Shown here: positions 4,522-43,681 of the stretch, in pieces
Layout of the letters: each line of letters begins with the position of its first letter
Numbering within the stretch: position 1 is the stretch's first letter
DNA from: Phycisphaerae bacterium
Lineage (GTDB): Bacteria; Planctomycetota; Phycisphaerae; Sedimentisphaerales; Anaerobacaceae
DNA: 64,000 nt
Direction: 5' to 3'
Assembly (NCBI GenBank): GCA_017993835.1
Contig: JAGOLX010000016.1
Coordinates: 1-64,000, forward strand
Program-made: the position numbers and the translations under genes
Notes under the pieces: generated by a model
What the model was told of the DNA's origin: nothing
Databases searched by the model: none
The model's input: the letters and a program-made list of their open reading frames with translations, nothing else

Positions 4522-7500
4522 TCACTTGGCCTTTACTTTTGGCTCGGTCGCGATGTTCTCGATCTTGGTCGCCCGCGTGGTCCTGTCCTGCTGTGCCGTC
4601 GGAAGATTGACCAGCAGCAGCGGCGCCGCGATGGCGATCGACGAATACGTTCCGACGACCAGGCCGAGGAAGATCACGAAGTTGAAGCCTCGCAGGCCGG
4701 GACCGCCGAAGATGTACATCACCAGCACGACCATCATCGTCGTGACGCCTGTGATCAGGGTTCGCGACATGGTCTGGTTGATGCTGTTCGTCACCGACTG
4801 GGGCGTCAACTGCACCTTGCGCCGGTTCTCGCGAATTCGGTCGAACACAACGATCGTGTCGTTCAGGGAGTAACCCAGCAGGGTCAGGACGGCCGCGATC
4901 ATGGTGCTGTTGATCCGGAAATCGCCGATCAGCAGGACGGAGCCGATCACGGTGGTCGCCAGGAAGGCCGAGGCGGCGATCGCGCCCAACGCGGTCGACA
5001 CGTCGTGGAACAGGGCGATGATGGCCGCCAACCCGAATCGCAGGTTGCCGAACCGGACCCAGATGTAGCCGACGATGGCAGCCAGCGACAGAACGATGGA
5101 GATGATGGCCCGCGTCTTGGCCTCGGAGCCGACGAACGGGTCGATCTGCGTCACGCGGGGCAGGGAGGTCTCACGCTGGGCGGCCAGGAGGACCCTGGAC
5201 TTCTCATTCTCGACGAAGAGCTGCCATTCGTCTTCGCTGAGCTCCCGCAGGCCGGCCTCGGGCTCGATGCTGACGAAGGTGAACGTGCTCACCACCTGGT
5301 TCGGCTCGACGGTCCTCAGGCCGGGACCGAACACCGCGTAGGGATACCAGACGAGGTCCTGCGTGTCCGGGCGGAACCGCAGGTCCTTGAGTCGCTGGTC
5401 GATCTCCGCCAGGGTCGCCGCGTTCTTGAGCGTCGTTTCGATCCGGATGCCGCCGATGTAGTCCGCCAGTTCGGGATACGTATCGACGATCTCCTCGTTG
5501 ACCTTGTCGGCGGCAGTAATCGCGGGCTGGAGGTTCTGCTGGACCTCCAACTGTCCCTCGAACGCCTGGCGGATCGCGTCCGTCACGACCGCCTGGACGA
5601 CCGGCTCGCTCACCTGCGCCTGGGGGAAGGCCTTGGTCAGGACGCTCTGGGTCATGCCGGGGTTGACGCGCGTGGTCGTGACGACATACGCGTTGTCCCC
5701 GTTGGCCGCCAGTTCGATCTTGCCCACCTCGCGATGCAGTTCCGTCTCGGCTTTGCGGATGTCGGCGGCGGCGGTTTCGACCGCGGGCCGTGGGCCCGGC
5801 TCGAACGTCACCGTCGTCTGCAGCTTGTTGACCGCGACCGTGGTGATCTCGTATTCATCGTAGATCTTGTCGCCGTTGGGCGCCTGGCCGATGGGGTCGC
5901 CGACGCTGTACACGGTGGCGGCCTTCAGGTCGTCATTGCCCGAGGTCTCCGCCACCTTCATAAGCTGGTCTTCCGCATTCTGGCGGGTGAGGGATGCGCC
6001 CTCTTTCAGATTGATCTGGACACTGGTACCGCCGGTGAACTCGATGTCGTATTTCGAGCTGCCGCGGGCGACGAAGAGAATCAGGCCGCCGAAGACGAGG
6101 ACGCTGGAGACTGTGTAGAAGATGTGGCGCATGCCCATCCAGTTGATGTTCGGCACCTTGATCAGACGCAGCATCGCCAGGCGGTCCTTGATGATCCGCT
6201 TCGAGACCAAGATGTCGAGGATGACGCGGGTCACGAAGATGGCGGTGAACAAGCTCGAACCGATACCGAGCATCAGGACGATGGCGAAGCCTTTCACGTC
6301 CTCAGATGCGACGTAGTAGAGAATGGCCGCCGTGAGGATCGTCGTCAGGTTCGAGTCGAGGATCGCGCTGAAGGCCCGCTGGTAACCGTTGCGAATGGCG
6401 GTTGCCAGGCCGGAACCCTTCTCCTGCTCCTCCCGAATCCTCTCGAAGATTAGCACGTTGGCGTCGACGCTCATGCCGATCGTCAGGATCAGACCGGCGA
6501 TGCCGGGCAGGGTGAACGTCGCCCGGATGGCGGCCATGATCGCGAGGGTGAACAGGATGTTCAGCAACAGGGCTACGTCGGCGATGGAGCCGCCGATGGC
6601 GTAGTAGACGATCATGAAGGCGACGACCAGCGCCAGGCCGATAATGCCCGAGCGAATACCCTTGGCGAGGTTGTCGGCGCCGACGGACGGGCCGATGACC
6701 TTCTCGGAGATCGGCTGCGGGATCAGTCGGGCGGGCAGCGAGCCGGCGTTCAGCTTGTTCACCATGTCGGTGATCTCGGTCGGGGTGAAGGTGCCCTGGA
6801 TGATGCCTCGCTGGCGGATGCCGCCTTCGGCGGTGATGTTCGGCGCCGAGATCGCGACGTCGTCGAGCAGAATGGCCAGCGGGCGGTTCGGGTTCTTGCT
6901 CGTGATGTTGTAGAAGAGGTCGCCGCCCCGGATGTTCAGGGTGAACCCGATGGCGCGACGGCCCATCGAGTCCTGGGTGGCATAGGAATCCTCCAGCTTC
7001 CACTCGCGGGTGGTTATGCTGTGGAGCATGGTCTCATCCTGCTGATTGCTGGCCAGGACGTACCATTTGTCGCCGAACTGGCCTTCGATGTCTTCGGAGG
7101 ACTTCCACTCTTCCTTGTTTTCGATCTGGATCCAGACGTACCGGTTGTCCGATGCGGCCTTGGGACCCTTCTCCCTGAGGTTCTCGATGTACCGCTCTCT
7201 CTCGGCGATGCTCGGTTCCCCTCGGTCGGTTGTCGGCAGAATACGGAACTCGAGGATGCCTGCGCCTTTGAGCATTCGCTTGAGGTCCGCGGGGTCGTCC
7301 AGTCGGCCGCGATAGGGCTCGTACTCCTTGTATGCTGCGACCACCTGATCGATTGCGTCCTTGCGGTCCGCAAACTTGGCCTTGAACTCCTCGATCCTCT
7401 CTTCCTTGTCGCGGCCTTTTATGTCCAGCATCGAAGTGACCTGCTCTTCGGACATGTTCAGGCGGTCCAACTGCCGCCGGGCCTGCTCGTATCGTTCATT

Positions 7501-29031: not shown

Positions 29032-32000
29032 TTACGGCTTGATGACGCGGATATCGTCGAAGTACACCGTGCCCGTTCCGCCCGCGGTTGGGCTGGGCCG
29101 ATTGCCGATTCCGATCGCGAGCGACTTGATCGCGGTGACCTTCACCCCGCCTGCGGTGATGTCGCTCAGCGGGATCAGCCACTGCTGCCACTCGCACCGT
29201 CCGGTCGCCATGAGGTCCGGGCACAACAGCGTCACGCTCTTGGAGTTGTCCTTGGCGGTCAGGTAGATGCGTTCGACCGAGTTGCCTTCCACCTGAGTGC
29301 TGCTGATGTCCATAGTCGTCCAGGCGCCGGTGACGTTGCCGGTCGTGGTGATATCGGAGAACGAGGCGCCGGTCACGATGGCCGCGTCATGGCTGGTCAC
29401 GGCCAAACCGATCAGAACGGGATCGGTCATAGTAATCGTCTGGGCTGTGCCCAACTGGGTCCAGGTGGTCCCGTCCGGTGAAATGTACCCGGAGAAGCTG
29501 TTGCCGATCCGCTCGACCTTCACCCAGTAGGGGAACGTCGCGGTCATACCGACACTAGCGGCATCCGCATTACTGGATGCGGCTGCGGCCGTAGGTCGCC
29601 ACTGGAAGCTGGCGCCGTTGCCGTCCAAGGCGCTCTTGGCCATCATGGCATTCACCGCACTGACCGCGGTGCTCTGGCGGATCATGACGCCGGCCTTGGC
29701 CCACGTGTTGCTCTGATACAGGCTGTTGACGCGTGCCACGATCGAACCGTTGCCGTTGAGCGTCTTGTAGGCGAAGCGGAAGGCGTCGGAGACGTCCCAG
29801 ATGTCGGCGCCGATGCCGTTCATGAGGATCTCGCCGTCGGTGCTCTGGGCGAAAGACGGCGCGATGCCGCGGAAGAACACCGAGATGGTGTTGGCCTCAT
29901 GTGCGGATAGGTCCTGGGCGGAGGCGAAGGACATCGTGGCTTCCGAATAGTAGGGCGAGCCCGTGTTGTTATACAAGAGGGGCATCGACTGTTTGCCGCC
30001 ATGAATGATGGTGGTCTCGCCGAACGTCCCGTAGGCGGAGTCGATGTAGCCGACCTGCGAACCGCTGCTCTTGTCCAGATAGCCGTCGAGCCAGGCGTCG
30101 TAGATCCGGTTGTCGTCGTCGTTGTAGCTCTCGAAGCCATCGATGAGGAGGAAGTTGGCCGTAGTGAACGACCAGACGTTGCCCTTCCAGGTCTCCGAGG
30201 CGCCGACTTCATCGACACGCCAGTAGTAGGTCTTGTTCCAGTCCAGATTGCCGGCGTCGAACGTGGTTCCGGACTGCTTGCCCATGAACAACGGGCTGGA
30301 GGTGTCGGCGGTGGCCACCGCGTTAGCGTCCTCGCCGAAGTAGACCTCGTGTTGCTCGGCCTGCTCGCCGGCCTCCCAGCTCAGCGCTCCGTCCTGCACG
30401 ACATCGACGACGCCGTTCGCAGGAGTCGGGCCGAAGGACTGCAAGGGCTTGAGGGCGAACATGTCCACGTAGTCGCTCGTGATGATCTCGCGAGCGTCGA
30501 TTCCCGGGCCCTGCCAGGCGGCCGACGTGCTGTCGCCGCCGTCGCCTTCCTTGCCGATGACCATGAAGAAGTACTTCTCACCGGCAGTCAGCGCGATCTC
30601 GCTGGACTTCTGCGCTGCGGTGGCGTTGCCGCCTGTGTTGTCGAAGTCACGCGCGGCGGTGTAGCCGATGACGCTGGCCACCACGGTGGCGTTCGCGGGG
30701 TTGGCATCGGTGCTCAGCCAGAACTCCTGGTAGTCATCGCCGGCCACCCAGAACGTGTAGTTTCCGGTCTCCGGCGGCTTGAGCCATCCCCAGTACCGCT
30801 GGCCGTAGTAGTTGGCCCAGTCCACCGCGCTGTCGACCGAGTCGACGTACTCCGCATGGTCCGGGCTGTTCGGATAGCGGGCATTGCCGGTCAGGGCGCT
30901 GATCGCGGTGCCGCTGATGTTCAGCCAGTACTCATACATGATCTTGTTGGCGGGGCCGGCGTCACATGTGGTGAAACTCCAGACGTTGCCGGGCAGCACC
31001 GCGGCGCCTGTCGACGTGTCCACACGCCAGTAGTAGGTGGTGGAGGCGCGAAGGGCGCCCGTGTTGAATTCCGAGTCTTTGACGGCGCCCTGATCCACCG
31101 AGGCGGCTCCTTCGGCCACCGCGTCGGCATCCATCCCGAAGTACATGTGCTCGCTGACAAAGTCCTTGCCCGGCACCCAGGTGAGGATCAGGCCGGGCAT
31201 CTGGTTCGTGGCGCCGTTGGCCGGGGTGGGCGCGAAGGCGATGAGCGCCTGTGCCGTGAAGCTCCAGACCTCGCCGGGGCGGACGGTGCCGTCGGCCTCG
31301 ATCTCGTCGACCTTCCAGTAGTAGGTCTGGCCCGGCTCGAAGGCGCCCGCGGCATAGTAGTAGAAGGCCGCTGTCTGACGACCGATCAAGGGCGGATTCG
31401 GATCGGTCCCGAAGTAGAAGTCATGCCACACAGCCGTGGCGCCCTTGGTCCACTGTATCACGGGCATGACCACGTTGATCGCGCCATCGGCCGGACTGGG
31501 GTTCTTGGCGCCGAGCATGGGCTCCGGATCCCGCAGCCAGGGGGCCAGGTACTTGCCTGCGACGACGACTGGGCCGGCGCCGATGCCGGGGCCGCCCCAG
31601 GCGACGCTGATGGTGCCGCCGCCGGTGCCGTCGTTCATGATGGTTTCGACGTAGTACCGTTTGCCGGCCGTCAGGGGGATCGCCGCCGACTTGAATCGGG
31701 TGCCCGGCGAGCCCGTCGTGCCTGCGAAGTTCTGGTAGTCCATCCAGCCGTCGACGGCACAGATTTCCACCATGTTGGCGGGGGATTCATCGGTGCTCAG
31801 CCAGACGATGCTGTAGTCGTCGCTGGCAACCCAGAACGTGTAGTCGCCTGTCTGCGGCGGGTAGATGTATCCGCGACTGCGGCAGCCCCAGTAGTCCTCG
31901 CCGCCGTCCGGGCGGTCCCACGCGGTCGCCCAGTAGCTCTTGTGCGGGTTGTCCGGGTAATCCGCGAACGACTGCAACGTGGCGATAGACGTGATGGAAC

Positions 32001-32115
32001 TGTCGAACCATTCTTCGAACAGGATGTTGCCTTTGCCGATGTCGGCAGCGGCCGCAAGGCCCGCCGACCCTGCGACCACGAGGGCCACGATGAGATAAAA
32101 CGATCTTTTGCCCAT
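29032..32115 (-). CDS. Large secreted modular surface protein (two PA14-like, three FN3-like, LamG-like insert)
   Basis: 1027 residues with a signal peptide ending near AGLAAAADI; AGGAGG precedes the ATG. The order is: PA14-like domain (about 27-195); two FN3-like repeats with YYWKVDE and YYWRVDT (205-290, 295-385); a second PA14-like domain (390-555, KPPETGNYTFWVAGDDYQEF); and a third FN3-like repeat (560-652). The shared C-terminal beta domain (657-757 and 945-1027) is interrupted at about 758-943. The insert is a concanavalin/LamG-like domain resembling DUF1349 (AFRFAYKTLNGNGSIVARVN, YWVKVERIGNSFSGYISPDG). Probably extracellular and carbohydrate-binding. Its module set is shared with the genes ending at 24814, 43681 and 58831. 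Confidence 0.85.
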   Translation of the reverse strand: MGKRSFYLIVALVVAGSAGLAAAADIGKGNILFEEWFDSSITSIATLQSFADYPDNPHKSYWATAWDRPDGGEDYWGCRSRGYIYPPQTGDYTFWVASDDYSIVWLSTDESPANMVEICAVDGWMDYQNFAGTTGSPGTRFKSAAIPLTAGKRYYVETIMNDGTGGGTISVAWGGPGIGAGPVVVAGKYLAPWLRDPEPMLGAKNPSPADGAINVVMPVIQWTKGATAVWHDFYFGTDPNPPLIGRQTAAFYYYAAGAFEPGQTYYWKVDEIEADGTVRPGEVWSFTAQALIAFAPTPANGATNQMPGLILTWVPGKDFVSEHMYFGMDADAVAEGAASVDQGAVKDSEFNTGALRASTTYYWRVDTSTGAAVLPGNVWSFTTCDAGPANKIMYEYWLNISGTAISALTGNARYPNSPDHAEYVDSVDSAVDWANYYGQRYWGWLKPPETGNYTFWVAGDDYQEFWLSTDANPANATVVASVIGYTAARDFDNTGGNATAAQKSSEIALTAGEKYFFMVIGKEGDGGDSTSAAWQGPGIDAREIITSDYVDMFALKPLQSFGPTPANGVVDVVQDGALSWEAGEQAEQHEVYFGEDANAVATADTSSPLFMGKQSGTTFDAGNLDWNKTYYWRVDEVGASETWKGNVWSFTTANFLLIDGFESYNDDDNRIYDAWLDGYLDKSSGSQVGYIDSAYGTFGETTIIHGGKQSMPLLYNNTGSPYYSEATMSFASAQDLSAHEANTISVFFRGIAPSFAQSTDGEILMNGIGADIWDVSDAFRFAYKTLNGNGSIVARVNSLYQSNTWAKAGVMIRQSTAVSAVNAMMAKSALDGNGASFQWRPTAAAASSNADAASVGMTATFPYWVKVERIGNSFSGYISPDGTTWTQLGTAQTITMTDPVLIGLAVTSHDAAIVTGASFSDITTTGNVTGAWTTMDISSTQVEGNSVERIYLTAKDNSKSVTLLCPDLMATGRCEWQQWLIPLSDITAGGVKVTAIKSLAIGIGNRPSPTAGGTGTVYFDDIRVIKP

Positions 32116-32474
32116 GATGCTCCTCCTTCTGAGGAAGTGGAAATGTACGTGCCGGCCACACACCAGACACACGAGGTTCTCGCCCGCAACCCACGGATCT
32201 GAGGGTTGCGCCCGGCGAGTTGCATCGTCACGCGATTGTCGCAGAGGATGCCACAGGTCCCCTCGGGACCCCAATTGTGGGAGATATCCGGAGCGTGCCA
32301 CCTCCTTTCTGCAAACACCGCTCACTCTGGTCCCATGCAGAATGGCCGAGCCGTTTCTGTTGGTGTGGAACGCCCACACAGGGAACCCTTCTCCCTATCC
32401 GAAAGCTCCACCGATCGTTCGAACCGGGCCCAGATCGTCCCCGGTCAGAGACCATCCTTCCATCACGTCGGCCA
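32116..32474 (-). promoter_or_regulatory. Long structured 5' leader of the large surface-protein gene
   Basis: About 360 bases lie between the predicted transcript start and the ATG. On the minus strand a GTGTGG/CCACAC hairpin is followed by AACGGCTC, then GAAAGGAGGTG (complement of 32299-32309), 184 bases before the start codon. A very stable stem-loop follows (complement of 32179-32219: CTCGCC and CGCAACCC arms, 10-base loop). The gene's own ribosome site lies further on. Compare the leaders at 26452 and 60814. Confidence 0.45.
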
Positions 32475-33672: not shown

Positions 33673-34944
33673 CTACCCGCGTGTCTTGACGCCGACGTAT
33701 TGCGTCCGGGCTTCGCCGAGGAGCTTGAGCATCTGATCGGCCTGGCGGCGGATCGATGGGTCCGTGCTGATGACCCGCGAGCTCCACTTGGCGTACTCGC
33801 GGTTCAACTGCACGCGGGCCTCGTCCTGGCTCATCGTCTCGGTCACGCCGAGGATCATCTCAGCGTCGTGGCCCTGGTGCATCTCGACGGGCAGGATCTT
33901 CTCCGCCATGACTCGAAGCCTGGCGCGGTCGATCTGGAACCAGTCGGAGAGCTGCTTGAGCAGTTGGAACTCCGCGGAGGACACCTGTCCTTTGGCGGCT
34001 GCGACGCGCAGGCACAAGTCGAGAATTTCGATCCGCCCGATGAGCGGGGCGATCTCGACGATCTCGCTGCAGATCGGCTCTACATTGAGAGTCCCGCCGT
34101 GGCGGAAGAAGTTCGCGGTCTTCTGCAGGGCGCGTTCCAGTTCCAGCCTGGCGCCGGCCGAGGCGTCCGCGGACCCGAAGTTGGTCTTGGCCCAGGCGCA
34201 GATCACGTTGACCTCCGGATCGAGCAGGTGCCCGTTGGCCGCGCCAACGCTGAAGGCCAGCCCGACCGCGAGGGTCTTGGCCCGCTGGATGTTGTCCTCG
34301 ACGTCGAGGTATCCGGTTTCCGTGTTCTCATAGGTGACGAGGCAGTCGGACTCGGCGAGGCACTCGCCGGTCTGACGGGAGGCGACCGCTACGGCGCATC
34401 GGAGTTGTCGCTGGCCCCCGCGAGGCAGAACGAACCAGTCCGGCGAGATCTGACCCACCGCCGTCCAGTCTTCGAGCACCGTCGTCTGGCGGCACAGCCT
34501 CCCCATGTCGCACCGGTGGCGGAAATGGGAGGAGGGATTCAGCGGGCCGTGCTTGGGACGGTTCAGGATCGGCAGGGATTCGGTCTCGTTGTCGGTCACG
34601 TCCTGGATTGTCACGTGCAGCTCGACCTCGTGTGCGTCGGCCGGGGCCTGGATGGTGCCGCAGGTATCGATCACGATGACCGACTTCCAGGACTCTCCGT
34701 CCGGCTGGCGGCCGATTCTCGCGCGGCAGTTGAACGCGTTGAGGTCCACGGGCCGACACAGTTCAGGGGGCACCTGGGATGCGCCGCGACCGGCTGCGAG
34801 CTTGCTGACCTGGTCCCAGGCCTTGCCGATTCGGGCGCCGGCGGCCGCCGGCAACTGCGGGGCCTTGCTCGAACGCAGACGCTTCAGAGCGCTGCGGTAC
34901 GCGTTCTTGACCGTCCGAATGATCTTGCTCAGTGCTGCCTGCAT
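33673..34944 (-). CDS. TerB-domain protein with degenerate J-like C-terminus
   Basis: 423 residues, no signal peptide. After a basic, Ala-rich N-terminus (1-60), residues about 68-205 look like an all-beta domain with many Cys. Residues about 215-350 form a TerB-like helical domain (LAVGLAFSVGAANGHLLDPE, LCLRVAAAKGQVSSAEFQLL). The end (360-416) follows the J-domain plan of DjlA-type proteins: ILGV, then DEARVQLNREYAKW, then QMLKLLGEAR. The HPD tripeptide that triggers Hsp70 ATPase is missing (SSRV stands there). It lies 28 bases after the Hsp70 gene, so it probably acts as that protein's co-chaperone. TerB and the J-like end are recognised by eye only. Confidence 0.65.
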   Translation of the reverse strand: MQAALSKIIRTVKNAYRSALKRLRSSKAPQLPAAAGARIGKAWDQVSKLAAGRGASQVPPELCRPVDLNAFNCRARIGRQPDGESWKSVIVIDTCGTIQAPADAHEVELHVTIQDVTDNETESLPILNRPKHGPLNPSSHFRHRCDMGRLCRQTTVLEDWTAVGQISPDWFVLPRGGQRQLRCAVAVASRQTGECLAESDCLVTYENTETGYLDVEDNIQRAKTLAVGLAFSVGAANGHLLDPEVNVICAWAKTNFGSADASAGARLELERALQKTANFFRHGGTLNVEPICSEIVEIAPLIGRIEILDLCLRVAAAKGQVSSAEFQLLKQLSDWFQIDRARLRVMAEKILPVEMHQGHDAEMILGVTETMSQDEARVQLNREYAKWSSRVISTDPSIRRQADQMLKLLGEARTQYVGVKTRG

Positions 34945-34972
34945 AGGTCCAGCCTGTTTCCTGGGGACAGAC

Positions 34973-36517
34973 TCATTGCACCTTGAACGGCTCCAATTGT
35001 GCGGTTGCCTTCTCGTTGGCGCCGTTCGCGTCGTCTTCGTCTATCGAGAAGTCCAGCTCCAACTGCCGACCGGACTCGACATCCCGGAATGCGCAGTGCA
35101 TTCGCTGGTTCAAGTCGTAGCTGTACGTCACCTGGATCGGGCGTTCCGCCGGACGGTCCGGCGGCAGTTCCAGGCTGTGTGTGGCGATCCGATTGACGTA
35201 GGCGGGGTCGGCGTCCTCGCCCTGCGTGATGGTGACCTCCACGCGCTTCTGGCCCTCGGAGACTGTGTAGAACGTCTGCGAGATCTCGCACGGCAGCGGC
35301 GTGTTCTTCTTCAGAATGATCCGGTTCTGCACGACCCGTCGCCCGGTCTCTTTGTCGATCGGGGCGCAGATCGTGCCGTAGCTGTGGTTGCACACGTCGG
35401 TCAGGCTGATGTCCTTGAGGCCCTCGCGGATTCCGGTCGCCACGTCGTCGGGATTCTGGCGGAGCTTCGTGATGCCTGCGTGCAGCGCGGCGCCGAGAGC
35501 GACGCACTCGTCCACGTTGATCGAGCACTCCGGCGGGAAGCCGAAGATCCCTTCGAGATGCGTGCGAATCAGGGGTATCCGCGTGCTGCCGCCGACCAGC
35601 AGGACGGTGGTCACGTCGGACGGTTTGATCCCTGCCTCGTCCAGGACTACTTCCACGAGCATGTCGGCCCGGGACACCAGGGGGGTGATTCCCTGCTCGA
35701 ACGCCTCGCGGCTGACCTCCCCTCGCATGCTGCCGGCGGGTCCGTACAGCATCGTCTTGGCCACTGGCCGGCGGGAGAGCGTCTTCTTGATGTCTTCCGC
35801 TTCATCCTCGTACTTGGCCCGATCCTCTTCCGTCGCGATCAAATCCGCGTTGAACTTGTCGCGGTACATCTTCTGCAGGAGTTCGAGCACGGTCCTGTCG
35901 AAGTCGATGCCGCCCAGGGCGTGGTCGCCCTGGGAACAGAGGATCTCCATGTCCAGACCCTTGACGTTCATGAGCGTGACGTCGAAGGTGCCGCCGCCCA
36001 GGTCATAGACCAGGACCCGCCCGGCGACGTTTTTGGTCGTCGCGTAGCACAGGGCCGCCGCGACCGGCTCGTTCACGATGCCGATCACGTTGAAGCCCGC
36101 GGCGGTGCCGGCGTCCATCGTCGCCTTGCGCCGAATCTCGTCGAAGTGCGCGGGCACCGAAATCACCGCATCGTGCATCTCACCGGCCTGGGCGGCGCCG
36201 TCCTGTCGGAGCTTCCTGAGGATCAGCGCGGACAGTTCCGTCGCGGTCCAGTTCTTGCCGTCGATGGACACCTTGAAGTCGGGATCGCCCATGTGACGCT
36301 TGACCCAGCGGACCGAACGCGATGCGTTGAGGTGTCGCGAGTTGAGGGCCTCCACGCCCACGCGGATGACGCCTCCGTCGTCCTCGTCGAAGAAGATCGC
36401 CGACGGCGTCAGCCGATCCCCGTCCGCATTCGGAACGATTTCCGGCTTGCCAATCGCGTTGAGCATGGCCAGGGACGAAAACGTGGTCCCGAGATCTATG
36501 CCGACGATGTTGCTCAT
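34973..36517 (-). CDS. Divergent lidless Hsp70 (DnaK-like) protein
   Basis: 514 residues against about 610-640 for DnaK. The ATPase domain (1-370) is well kept: GIDLGTTFSSLA, NEPVAAALCYA, VYDLGGGTFDV and LLVGGSTRIPLI. The conserved interdomain linker (DVLLLD in DnaK) is replaced by ISLTDV. A substrate-binding beta domain follows (about 378-492, NTPLPCEISQTFYTVSEGQ), but the alpha-helical lid is absent; the chain ends in a short acidic tail. Lidless Hsp70s bind and release clients fast or bind folded partners (family knowledge). Flanked by a GrpE-like membrane protein and a TerB/J-like protein in one minus-strand unit. This is unlikely to be the housekeeping dnaK. Confidence 0.9.
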   Translation of the reverse strand: MSNIVGIDLGTTFSSLAMLNAIGKPEIVPNADGDRLTPSAIFFDEDDGGVIRVGVEALNSRHLNASRSVRWVKRHMGDPDFKVSIDGKNWTATELSALILRKLRQDGAAQAGEMHDAVISVPAHFDEIRRKATMDAGTAAGFNVIGIVNEPVAAALCYATTKNVAGRVLVYDLGGGTFDVTLMNVKGLDMEILCSQGDHALGGIDFDRTVLELLQKMYRDKFNADLIATEEDRAKYEDEAEDIKKTLSRRPVAKTMLYGPAGSMRGEVSREAFEQGITPLVSRADMLVEVVLDEAGIKPSDVTTVLLVGGSTRIPLIRTHLEGIFGFPPECSINVDECVALGAALHAGITKLRQNPDDVATGIREGLKDISLTDVCNHSYGTICAPIDKETGRRVVQNRIILKKNTPLPCEISQTFYTVSEGQKRVEVTITQGEDADPAYVNRIATHSLELPPDRPAERPIQVTYSYDLNQRMHCAFRDVESGRQLELDFSIDEDDANGANEKATAQLEPFKVQ

Positions 36518-36574
36518 GTTATTCTCCTGTGTACAGCCAAGCCGTGCAGCGTCCCCTGGCGTGGATGCGACGCA

Positions 36575-38089
36575 TCACCCGAAAAGCCGGACCTGCGCGG
36601 TTCGAACCACCTTATAGTTCTCGTCGTCAATCATGTACCGATACCCCGGTCGAAGGACCTGGGCAATCCTGCCGGCCTCTTCGGGCTTGTGGGCAGGCTG
36701 TTTCTCCCTCACCGCTTCCGCGAGCTTCTCCTGCCCGCGGTACTCGCTGTTGAGTTCGGGTTTGAACTGCTCGATCCCGCTGGATTCCATCGCGAATAGC
36801 AGTTCGTCGCGGACCTCCTCCAGGTAGATCAGATCGTCGCAGTCCTTGGGCGGATTGTCGATCCGACTCTCGATGTTGTCGATGCAGCGGATGACCCGCA
36901 GGCCGAACGTCCGGATAATGCCCCAGTCGTAGCCGTCCTGGAGTTTCTCCACGCGGTCCTGTTGGCAGGCTGCGTACTCGCGAATGGCCGACACCTGCTG
37001 GGCCAGTTCTTTGAGCGTGTTGCTCAGAGGTTCCGATCGCTCCCGTGTGGCCTGCTGGACGCTCTGTGCGACCTCCTTGAACTCGGCGATCTGTTTCTGC
37101 AGACCCTCCGCCTGCTCCTTCAGGGTGTTCTCCACCGCGGCCTCGTTCGCGTGGGTGGGAGCTGCCGTTGTCTTCACTCGGGGCGTCAACTGCGGCTCCC
37201 GCGGGACGGCGACGATCGAGGGTTCGGCCTGCCCCTGGACCGACCATTGCGCCTCGGCCGACCACTCCGTCTCCTGCGAGGGTTCGTCCGCCAGCAGGAC
37301 AGCGACGCCGGTCTCCTCCTCGACAGTCTGGACCGCCGTCGAGGTGCGTCCCATTCTCGCACGGGCCGCCACGAGGGGCGAAAGAAACTCCTCGCCCGCC
37401 AGGGGGTGTGGCGGCGACGAGTCGCCGCCTTGGTAGGCTGCGGCCGATTCCGACAGGGCCAGTCGTCTGCGTCCCTGCCGGGGCCGTTCCTCCGGCGGGG
37501 GAAGCTCCTCGACGGGTTCTTCGGGCTCGATGTCCATTAGTTCGGGTTGCGGCGAGGGTTCGGGGTCGCTTCGAGGAACTCGCCGTCGCAGCCTCCGGAC
37601 GGTCCTGACGAACGTCCGAAGCGTCCAGAAGACGGCGCACAGGACGAAGAGGACGCCGCCGATGGACAGGCACACGGCGGAGATGATCTGCACGATCTCC
37701 ACCTGTTCCTTCTGCTTCTTATACTGCTCGACCTCGTTCTGCCAACCGGGGCCGTAGAGGATGTCCGCGATGTCGCCGGGGTCCATCTGTCCTGCAGCCA
37801 GCTTCTCCAGGTCCGCTCGAAGTCGGGCCTGCTGCTCGCTGGCGAGCTGCTCCGCTGTCTTGTCCTGGCGGTCCTTGTCCAGCTCCAGGACGAGCTGATT
37901 CTGCTGCTCCGGACTGAGCTGGTACCACCGCCCGTACTTCTCGAGGTACTCCTCGGGGCCCAGCGATCTCTTGACTCCCGGGGCGGGGGCCTGTGCCTCT
38001 TCCGTCTGCGCCTCGCGGTAGACCCACGCCGTGGCGAGACCGCCAACGAGCAGCAGAGCCAATCCCAGGATCACACACTTCTGGAGCAT
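36575..38089 (-). CDS. Membrane-anchored GrpE-like protein
   Basis: 504 residues from ATG 38089 (an in-frame TTG at 38107 is the alternative). Two membrane segments (about 4-22, CVILGLALLLVGGLATAW; about 132-152, IISAVCLSIGGVLFVLCAVF) enclose a Gln/Glu-rich helical, probably periplasmic loop. A long acidic, Pro-rich cytoplasmic linker leads to a coiled coil (about 310-365). A C-terminal region follows the GrpE pattern: DWGIIRTFGLRVIRCIDNIE, LLFAMESSGIEQFKPELNSE, then GRIAQVLRPGYRY and a final RTAQVRLFG. GrpE is the nucleotide-exchange factor of DnaK. It stands 57 bases upstream of the lidless Hsp70 gene, so it probably ties that chaperone to the membrane. Confidence 0.7.
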   Translation of the reverse strand: MLQKCVILGLALLLVGGLATAWVYREAQTEEAQAPAPGVKRSLGPEEYLEKYGRWYQLSPEQQNQLVLELDKDRQDKTAEQLASEQQARLRADLEKLAAGQMDPGDIADILYGPGWQNEVEQYKKQKEQVEIVQIISAVCLSIGGVLFVLCAVFWTLRTFVRTVRRLRRRVPRSDPEPSPQPELMDIEPEEPVEELPPPEERPRQGRRRLALSESAAAYQGGDSSPPHPLAGEEFLSPLVAARARMGRTSTAVQTVEEETGVAVLLADEPSQETEWSAEAQWSVQGQAEPSIVAVPREPQLTPRVKTTAAPTHANEAAVENTLKEQAEGLQKQIAEFKEVAQSVQQATRERSEPLSNTLKELAQQVSAIREYAACQQDRVEKLQDGYDWGIIRTFGLRVIRCIDNIESRIDNPPKDCDDLIYLEEVRDELLFAMESSGIEQFKPELNSEYRGQEKLAEAVREKQPAHKPEEAGRIAQVLRPGYRYMIDDENYKVVRTAQVRLFG

Positions 38090-38524: not shown

Positions 38525-38597
38525 GGGTGATTAGCTCAATCGGTAGAGCAGCTGACTCTTAATCAGCAGGTCGAAGGTTCGACTCCTTCATCACCCA
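38525..38597 (+). tRNA. trnK: tRNA-Lys (anticodon CTT)
   Basis: Cloverleaf of 73 bases: acceptor GGGTGAT with ATCACCC, discriminator A, D arm around GCTCAATCGGTAGAGC, anticodon stem GCTGA/TCAGC with loop CTCTTAA (anticodon CTT), T loop TTCGACT. CCA is not encoded. Confidence 0.95.
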
Positions 38598-38840
38598 CTC
38601 CTGCGTGAGGAAGGGCGGGTTCCTGTGCTAAGACATGTTTTGTCTTGGGCTTATGATGCCCTTTCCGGCCCCCGGTGGGAGGAGATACAGCGCGACGGGA
38701 GGGCGGTTCGTTTCCGGACTTAGGTCTTTACAACGGGCCCGCATTTCGTAAGATAAATGTTTTTGCCGCCGGTCGGTCGAGCGATGGACGTACCTGTGAG
38801 CCACGCCCCCGGCGACGTGAACCAGGAGTTGGGACGCAGT

Positions 38841-41875: not shown

Positions 41876-43681
41876 ATGGACACGAGAGCATGGCATCCGA
41901 TTGTGGCGATCCTGGCAATGGCTCTGTGCATCCCGGCGTGGGGGCAGAAGGCCAGCAACCCCACCCCTGCGGACGGAGACGTGTATGTGGAAGCGCCCTG
42001 GTTTCAGTGGACTGCCGGGCTGGGAGCGGCGACGCACAATCTCTATATCGGAACGGATCCCGACCTGGGCCCGGAGGACCTTGTCATGTCCGGTTTGACC
42101 GCCGCGGCGTGGTGGCATTTCCCCGGCATCACAGCCGGCACTACCTACTACTGGCGCGTGGACGAGGTGGAGGGCGATGGTGTGACGATCCATACAGGCG
42201 ACGTCTGGACCTTCCTGGCATGGCCGCGGACCGCGTTCCTGCCCGATCCCGCAGACAGGAGCAACATCGCCGCCCTGACGCCGGACCTGACGTGGCTGGA
42301 AGGCCAGGTGGCCCAGGAGCACCACGTGTACTTCGGCTCGACGCGAGCTGCCGTGGCCGCGGGCGATCCGGAGACGGACAAGGGCGTCTTCGACGATCCC
42401 AACTACGCGCCGGGCGAACTGGAGTCCCTGACCACCTACTTCTGGCGGGTGGACGAGATCCTACCCATGGATGAGATCGTGACCGGCGAGGTCTGGAGCT
42501 TCACGACGGTCCTGCCGGTGGACGACTTCGAGAGCTACACGGAAGTCGAGGGCAATCGGCTCTACGAGTTCTGGATCGACGGCGTCACGAACGGCACGGG
42601 CTCCTATGTCGGCTATGAGAACGCCAGCAACGGGACGTTCGGGGAGACCGTCATCGTCCACACGGGGTTCCAGTCGATGCCGCTGACGTACGACAACACC
42701 AAGACGCCGTACTACAGCGAGGTCGAGTATCCCTTCGACGGATCTCAGGATTGGACGGTCGACGATGTGAACGAGATAGTTGTTTACGTCCGCGGCAACG
42801 GTGAAAGCATTGCGGATTTCAAAATCAACTACGTGAGCGCACCGCCGCTGATCGACGGACAGGTCGATGAGGTCTGGGCATCGGTTGCAGCGTATCCGAT
42901 CACAACCCTCATTGATGGCGCCGAGATCGACTCGCCAGCCGATGCCTCGGGGCAGTTCCGTGTCCTTTGCGACAACGACTATCTCTATGCCTTGGTCGAC
43001 ATCAACGATGCGACACTGAAGAATGATTCCGCTTCCGCCTACCTCGACGATAGCGTTGAGTTCTACGTCGATGGTGACAACACAAAGAAAGAACCGGGGC
43101 TGAGCGGGAACAACCGCCAGTACACCTTCGGGTGGACGGCCACCGACATCCAGGGCACCAACACGAACACCACTGACGTCGCGCACGCGCAGGTCAATAC
43201 ACCCGGCGGCTGGAGGATCGAGCTGAAGTTTCCCTGGCAGTCGCTTATGGGCACCAGCGCCCCCGCGGGCAAGCTCATCGGGGTCGATTGCTTCTACAAC
43301 GACGACGACGACGGTGCCGATACTCGTGAGTCACAGATTGCCTGGCATTCGACGGTGGGAAATGACTGGCAGACGCCTGCGAGTTGGGGCACGGCCTTCG
43401 TGGCGCCGTCGACCGCGACCACCGAAGCAGATCAGCTCTATGTTGTGGTCCGCGATGCCTCCAATCATACGGCCACCGTAGTGAGTGCGGACCCCGAGAT
43501 CATCAAGACAGGCGATTGGGTTCCGTGGCGGATTCCGCTCACGGATTTCGCAGGGGTGAATTTGGCGACGGTTCGTAAACTGTACATCGGCGTCGGCGAT
43601 CGCGACAACCCCGTGCCGGGCGGCAAGAGCACCATCTACTTCGATGATGTCTTCCTGACTCGGCCCGCGTCCGAGGAGTAG
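41876..43681 (+). CDS. Secreted modular surface protein with inserted CBM9-like domain
   Basis: 601 residues; AAGGAGG lies 6 bases before the ATG and the signal peptide ends near IPAWGQ. Two FN3-like repeats (about 26-115 and 118-212, YYWRVDE and YFWRVDE) lead to the shared C-terminal beta domain (214-308 and 515-592). Between VVYVRGNGES and ADQLYVVVRD sits a CBM9-like domain (about 312-512; PLIDGQVDEVWAS, DDSVEFYVDGDN, NNRQYTFGW, DCFYNDDDDGADTRE). Similar CBM9 domains bind sugar ends in xylanases. The same CBM9 type occurs in the protein ending at 58831. Its place inside the host domain matches the insert site of the protein ending at 29032. Confidence 0.85.
   Translation: MDTRAWHPIVAILAMALCIPAWGQKASNPTPADGDVYVEAPWFQWTAGLGAATHNLYIGTDPDLGPEDLVMSGLTAAAWWHFPGITAGTTYYWRVDEVEGDGVTIHTGDVWTFLAWPRTAFLPDPADRSNIAALTPDLTWLEGQVAQEHHVYFGSTRAAVAAGDPETDKGVFDDPNYAPGELESLTTYFWRVDEILPMDEIVTGEVWSFTTVLPVDDFESYTEVEGNRLYEFWIDGVTNGTGSYVGYENASNGTFGETVIVHTGFQSMPLTYDNTKTPYYSEVEYPFDGSQDWTVDDVNEIVVYVRGNGESIADFKINYVSAPPLIDGQVDEVWASVAAYPITTLIDGAEIDSPADASGQFRVLCDNDYLYALVDINDATLKNDSASAYLDDSVEFYVDGDNTKKEPGLSGNNRQYTFGWTATDIQGTNTNTTDVAHAQVNTPGGWRIELKFPWQSLMGTSAPAGKLIGVDCFYNDDDDGADTRESQIAWHSTVGNDWQTPASWGTAFVAPSTATTEADQLYVVVRDASNHTATVVSADPEIIKTGDWVPWRIPLTDFAGVNLATVRKLYIGVGDRDNPVPGGKSTIYFDDVFLTRPASEE

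Follow-up and report, generated by a model that had tools for sequence, protein, structure and literature searches.

A conserved gene triad in Sedimentisphaerales encoding a membrane-anchored GrpE-like protein, a lidless Hsp70 and a TerB protein with a J-like end

Three adjacent genes in the stretch of planctomycete DNA analysed here (64,000 nucleotides, referred to below as the window) encode the same kinds of component as the DnaK-DnaJ-GrpE system, namely an Hsp70, an exchange factor and a J-like helper. Compared with that system, however, each is altered: the exchange factor is membrane-anchored, the Hsp70 is without the lid, the GrpE-signature loop and the arginine corresponding to DnaK Arg167, and the helper lacks the HPD motif. 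We think it fairly probable that the triad constitutes a dedicated Hsp70 machine held to the inner membrane of Sedimentisphaerales on its cytoplasmic side. The GrpE half of this module can be regarded as firm and the J half as moderate; that the three products function jointly is something we infer.

Gene order and distribution

The genes are arranged head to tail on the minus strand, which carries all the features of the triad described below. The first (36575..38089) encodes the GrpE-like membrane protein (P0001, 504 residues), an open reading frame matching the GrpE Pfam entry with 22.8-26.0 bits. The second (34973..36517) encodes the lidless Hsp70 (P0002, 514 residues), which matches the Pfam HSP70 entry with 325.6 bits and, when mapped on Escherichia coli DnaK, comprises a nucleotide-binding domain (NBD), an altered linker, the β-domain for substrate binding (SBD-β) and a short tail. 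The third (33673..34944) is the open reading frame of the TerB/J-like protein (P0003, 423 residues; hereafter TerB-J), with a TerB Pfam match of 20.7 bits. All three reading frames had been picked out in an earlier note on this DNA and were found where it had placed them. A gap of 57 nt separates the GrpE-like stop (36575) from the Hsp70 start (36517), and one of 28 nt the Hsp70 stop (34973) from the TerB start (34944); the three genes probably form a single operon. Their host is a 6.37 Mb draft genome, and the named relatives of the window are Phycisphaerae, many of them labelled Sedimentisphaerales. Upstream of the operon and on the opposite strand lies a tRNA-Lys (CTT) gene (window 38525-38598, plus strand). 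The triad is also flanked by genes for large, secreted-looking proteins at window 29032-32379 (minus strand) and 41876-43681 (plus strand), which have a similar stretch in common, GTFGET.I.H.G.QSMPL.Y.N...PYYSE.

Conservation of the linkage was assessed in two ways. A survey anchored on the GrpE-like protein, comprising 62 fetched loci and the window, yielded 58 complete triads. In these the order GrpE-like, Hsp70, TerB-J on one strand is invariant and the intergenic gaps are mostly below 70 nt. Loci without a complete triad are truncated by contig ends, with the exception of L098, where the TerB gene was not detected beside the genes for the GrpE-like protein and Hsp70. A pattern scan for TerB-J in the collection of species genomes gave 75 loci, and those with enough upstream sequence contain both the Hsp70 and the GrpE-like gene, L172 excepted. 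At the latter (positions 6055-6873, genome CP070715) a second copy of TerB-J, shortened at its N-terminus, stands without Hsp70 and GrpE-like genes. Nearly all relatives whose sequence is complete enough thus retain the triad in unchanged order, and such conserved linkage excludes a chance association of the three genes. No further gene conserved around the triad across families was seen in the surveyed loci, whose flanks differ.

As far as is known, the triad is confined to part of one planctomycete order: the GrpE-like protein was matched in 97 of the 161 genomes of Sedimentisphaerales, and no full-length match outside the order appeared among 150 genomes sampled from the class. The linkage anticipated in the earlier note is therefore conserved, in the 58 complete loci, but not across Planctomycetota. 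A triad spanning that phylum was rejected, since outside the order only a few looser relatives were seen. In two of these, from the same class (G523) and from another class (G013), a GrpE-like gene lies upstream and its product shows no evident membrane segments; an Hsp70, a TerB-J carrying a membrane segment at its N-terminus and an M48 peptidase are also encoded there. An M48-type metallopeptidase gene directly follows TerB-J in two distant relatives (L206, 7791-8918; L026, 6785-7924). The upstream protein of G523 scores 25.7 bits against the GrpE Pfam entry; that of G013 has no Pfam match, so that its identity as GrpE comes from position and alignment. In a third relative, G071, the gene for a short Hsp70 adjoins that for a soluble GrpE (62 bits). 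A membrane tether on the GrpE side seems to be specific to this order.

The triad is additional to, rather than a replacement for, the general chaperone system, because the same genome holds a complete housekeeping set. Its DnaK, of 643 residues, has the lid and an arginine at the HPD contact, and its GrpE (149 bits) and DnaJ (106 bits) are encoded close together on contig C67. This bears out the previous suggestion that the locus is distinct from housekeeping DnaK.

The GrpE-like membrane protein

Bacterial GrpE is known as a general factor and is usually a soluble protein of the cytosol; the protein of the triad departs from it in having two membrane segments. Hydropathy places these at residues 3-31 and 135-167 of the 510-residue form that starts at TTG; numbering of the 504-residue form starting at ATG is lower by about six. 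In terms of the shorter form, a first membrane helix at about residues 2-29 (38003..38087; hydropathy and a predicted helix 2-33) is followed by a putative extracytoplasmic helical domain at about residues 30-128 (37706..38002), with predicted helices at 45-57, 60-75, 79-99 and 105-112. The alignment shows this outer domain to have a conserved W116 and conserved QxxRL and LYG motifs. The second membrane helix, at about residues 129-161 (37607..37705; hydropathy and helix 116-170), leads into an Arg-rich stretch. Two membrane segments are present in 104 of 122 GrpE-like entries, although here, as for the Hsp70 entries below, some loci were fetched twice and entries do not equal independent genomes. 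The positive charges before the first segment and after the second suggest a topology with both termini inside the cell.

Beyond the membrane region, residues 171-315 (37145..37579) form a variable linker, unconserved in the alignment and predicted to be disordered, pLDDT values being mostly below 50 between residues 180 and 315. The C-terminal domain (residues 316-504, 36578..37144), by contrast with the linker, is predicted with high confidence. At E ≤ 0.001 Foldseek matched its model to four PDB chains, all of them GrpE (two of human GrpEL1, one from Thermus and one from E. coli), and with a second aligner, VIA, residues 309-504 gave Z scores of 12.5 to 9.4 for six GrpE chains, exceeding those of unrelated structures. 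The window protein scores 22.8 bits against Pfam PF01025 when searched alone, the cut-off being 25.8, and 26.0 bits in a search of the genome, and the family is matched at E ≤ 0.01 in 44 of 54 GrpE-like members. A C-terminal GY...R.A.V motif, in which G482, Y483, R496, A498 and V500 are invariant, aligns with E. coli GrpE, and a conserved YRGQEKxAEAV takes the place of the DPxxHEA of ordinary GrpE. When solved structures were searched with profiles from the alignments of the GrpE-like protein and of TerB-J, no GrpE or J match was retrieved, only channel/receptor and designed proteins. We regard the predicted GrpE fold of the C-terminus, composed of a long helix, a helix bundle and a β-domain at the C-terminal end, as firm. 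Two membrane helices, a long linker and a GrpE-type end, as first read from the sequence, are hence borne out by hydropathy, by the relatives and by the structural model.

The lidless Hsp70 and the TerB protein

Phosphate motifs are intact in every aligned triad Hsp70 and the peptide-binding SBD-β is kept. Mapped on E. coli DnaK, the protein lacks region 76-101, the GrpE-signature loop 290-295 and the whole of the lid, and has an insertion ahead of the linker. The earlier note was accordingly right that the ATPase motifs are retained and the lid lost, but the linker, which it thought lost in its normal form, is instead altered: ISLTD (residues 370-374, 35396..35410) aligns with VLLLD of DnaK and is close to VILTD of E. 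coli HscC. The deletion of the GrpE-signature loop, located at residues 257-264 (35726..35749), removes six residues in all aligned triad Hsp70s. DnaK Arg167, the contact of the HPD aspartate (PMC8215388), is replaced by Gly146 (36080..36082), and among 120 readable triad Hsp70 entries, again not independent genomes, the position holds Gly in 100 and Ala in 20. Arginine occupies it in the host's own DnaK and in E. coli DnaK, HscA and HscC. A strict pairing of HPD loss with Arg167 loss was considered and rejected: the Hsp70s of G523 and G013 keep Arg or Lys here, and the J-like ends of these relatives read KWRSR or KWRAR.

Against the NCBIfam DnaK model the triad Hsp70 scores 320 bits, the cut-off being 648. 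Triad Hsp70s form one clade (100/99) adjoining those of the looser relatives G013 and G071, and their grouping with HscC in the tree is weak (93/54). Other unusual Hsp70 loci were encountered in genome G000. On contig C88 (L027, 6696-9061) a divergent Hsp70-like gene (547 residues) adjoins a small GrpE-like gene among formylglycine-enzyme-like genes. On contig C20 (L028, 7083-10092) a short Hsp70 (504 residues), whose phosphate motif is changed to DAGN, has a coiled-coil-like protein on one side and a von Willebrand A-like protein on the other.

The AlphaFold model of TerB-J has a mean pLDDT of 90 and contains three parts. Predicted strands delimit a β-sandwich domain at residues 72-207 (34324..34731), for which a structural search gave only common β-sandwich arrangements, with Z up to 8.0; as the results of this whole-protein search were filled by the β-sandwich, they say nothing on the J-like part. 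A helical TerB domain follows at residues 212-350 (33895..34311), supported by predicted helices and by a Pfam match over 227-343. The window copy scores 20.7 bits against PF05099, below the cut-off of 24.4, and the family is matched at E ≤ 0.01 in 43 of 56 TerB-J members, the best at 7.7e-14. The same β-sandwich/TerB-like module forms the C-terminus of a PAS sensor kinase-like protein of 1514 residues in a Pontiellaceae metagenome-assembled genome (G646; L273, 1-4542, minus strand).

The third part is a predicted J-like hairpin at residues 361-416 (33697..33864; helices 361-365, 373-392 and 396-416). No Pfam J match was obtained for this end of the window copy. Comparison with the J-domain profile by hhalign gave P = 5e-4 and a probability of 31%, other parts of the protein giving P of 0.23 to 0.53. 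The alignment extends ungapped from ILGV through helix III and is the best register in the protein (z 3.3), although column-shuffled J profiles reach the same score in 141 of 2000 trials. At the HPD place this ungapped register puts Ser388-Ser389-Arg390 (33775..33783), and all 56 aligned members read [NS][AS]R at the corresponding positions, with an invariant Arg. There is no HPD string anywhere in the hairpin of the window copy. A literal HPD does occur five residues beyond the aligned site in 26 of 138 entries, so that an alternative J register is possible, but we take these downstream strings as chance or as a feature of the loop. Since HPD is missing in every aligned member in the best register, TerB-J is not a J-domain protein by definition. 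Thus, of the J-like end without HPD originally proposed, the absence of HPD stands (in the best register) and a three-helix J-like arrangement is indeed predicted, with a modest profile match; we consider a J-like, HPD-less end plausible, with weak to moderate support.

Could a protein set with so many losses be a decayed or non-chaperone remnant, in which the GrpE and J domains are mere scaffolds? The lid, HPD, Arg167 and the GrpE-signature loop are all missing, yet the phosphate-binding motifs are intact in every aligned triad member, the GrpE domain remains about 45-80% identical across genera and gene order is kept. These observations indicate that the triad is under selection rather than decaying, and make a remnant very improbable.

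Possible functions and relation to known systems

In the machine that we propose, the GrpE-like protein would cross the membrane twice, exposing a small helical domain outside and carrying a GrpE domain, presumably dimeric, inside the cell on a long flexible linker. It could thereby hold the soluble Hsp70 near the membrane and drive the exchange of its ADP for ATP. Lacking a lid and having an altered linker, the Hsp70 may bind clients only weakly and briefly through its β-domain. TerB-J, which has a membrane segment in most relatives, might recruit Hsp70 or clients by means of its β-sandwich and TerB domain, its HPD-less hairpin serving as a docking or restraining element like Pam16 rather than triggering the ATPase in the classical way. 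That the proteins interact physically and that exchange takes place, like the topology and any regulatory role, is presumed here from the domains and their conservation. Several points count against the proposal. The Hsp70 is without the GrpE-signature loop, which is likewise missing from HscA and HscC, two proteins believed to work without GrpE (PMC8215388); support for the J assignment is modest; and the ATPase neighbours described below are limited to one family.

The succession of membrane segment, helical domain, membrane segment, coiled segment and output resembles the architecture of sensor proteins, and the triad may instead be mainly a transmembrane signalling device, its outer domain sensing a cue and changing the GrpE dimer, with exchange as the output and TerB-J reading the state of Hsp70. 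The fusion of the β-TerB module to the Pontiellaceae sensor kinase-like protein would fit such a role, as would the ECF sigma and zinc-finger anti-sigma-like genes adjoining the triad in several genomes, and the missing lid and HPD argue against bulk folding. A plain membrane anchor would show the same architecture, however; the outer domain, searched within the whole protein, has no informative PDB match, and a disordered linker of 145 residues would transmit a conformational signal poorly. Overall we judge this unlikely. The related notion that, through the transmembrane GrpE, a signal from outside sets the exchange rate on a dedicated Hsp70, whose cycle would be a switch restrained by the HPD-less J-like element, appears to us similarly doubtful.

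Neighbouring genes provide a lead on function. Among the 42 loci belonging to the window's family, 25 have a T2SSE-type (pilus/secretion) ATPase in their flanks, neighbours within one family not being independent; at the density of the window genome about one would be expected by chance over all 62 loci. In 14 substantial cases the ATPase gene is co-directional with the GrpE-like gene and no more than 129 nt from it, and several loci have T2SSF, ECF sigma and zinc-finger genes close to the triad. In a Pontiellaceae genome the β-TerB-J gene precedes a T2SSE-secretin-T2SSE-T2SSF cluster; no partner Hsp70 or GrpE was seen there on the fetched short contigs, which end at that point. The triad could accordingly serve a pilus or secretion machine as an assembly or extraction motor comparable to that of mitochondrial import, one that pulls or remodels pilins or subunits in the inner membrane, and the Hsp70-like StkA of Myxococcus is known to act between type IV pili and exopolysaccharide control (PMC4319316). 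Against this, such a neighbour is absent from all 20 loci of other families and from the vicinity of the window's copy, the closest ATPase relative in the window genome (67%) lying on another contig. A motor of this kind is therefore a possibility of rather low probability. That the triad helps to assemble a type IV pilus or type II secretion-like machine, or signals from one, is likewise less likely than not, a guess from gene neighbours and a lead rather than a result. An anti-phage role is not supported, as a search of a defence-system library gave only weak coiled-coil matches.

The preferred reading, a dedicated membrane-associated Hsp70 machine, has partial parallels elsewhere. HscC of E. 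coli, with its partners DjlB and DjlC, has in common with the triad Hsp70 the two NBD deletions (76-101 and 290-295) and an LTD-type linker, but it keeps the lid that the latter lacks and has no known GrpE partner. HscC and its specialised partners DjlB and DjlC are believed to have membrane proteins as their targets (PMC8215388). E. coli DjlA, like most TerB-J relatives, combines an N-terminal membrane segment, a TerB-like part and a C-terminal J-like part. TerB-J differs in its extra β-sandwich, its lack of HPD and its linkage to an Hsp70 and GrpE of its own; an N-terminal membrane segment is present in 79 of 116 TerB-J entries but not in the window copy, which consequently does not show the set of membrane segment, TerB domain and HPD-bearing J domain that defines DjlA. 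By analogy, the Pam18/Pam16/mtHsp70/Mge1 import motor may offer another example of membrane-tethered Hsp70 control with an HPD-less J-like partner, although its Mge1, unlike the GrpE-like protein here, is a soluble GrpE. Pam16 is an HPD-less, J-like regulatory partner (PMC12953747), but it pairs with the HPD-bearing Pam18 and the triad holds no such partner. Finally, the GAP1-N2 GTPase conflict systems include HSP70, GrpE and DnaJ (PMC7159879) and so resemble the triad as dedicated sets outside housekeeping; they differ from it in that the triad has no further gene conserved around it across families.

We found no previous account of a membrane-anchored GrpE in the literature searched, which covered few subscription papers and is not proof of absence. 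Related kinds of component are known separately, in HscC, DjlA and Pam16, but their combination with a GrpE built into the membrane was not found described there. If our reading is true, the exchange factor offers a means of localising the Hsp70 cycle to the membrane and perhaps of controlling it there. This reading also raises the testable question of how an Hsp70 cycle runs without HPD, Arg167, the lid or the GrpE-signature loop.
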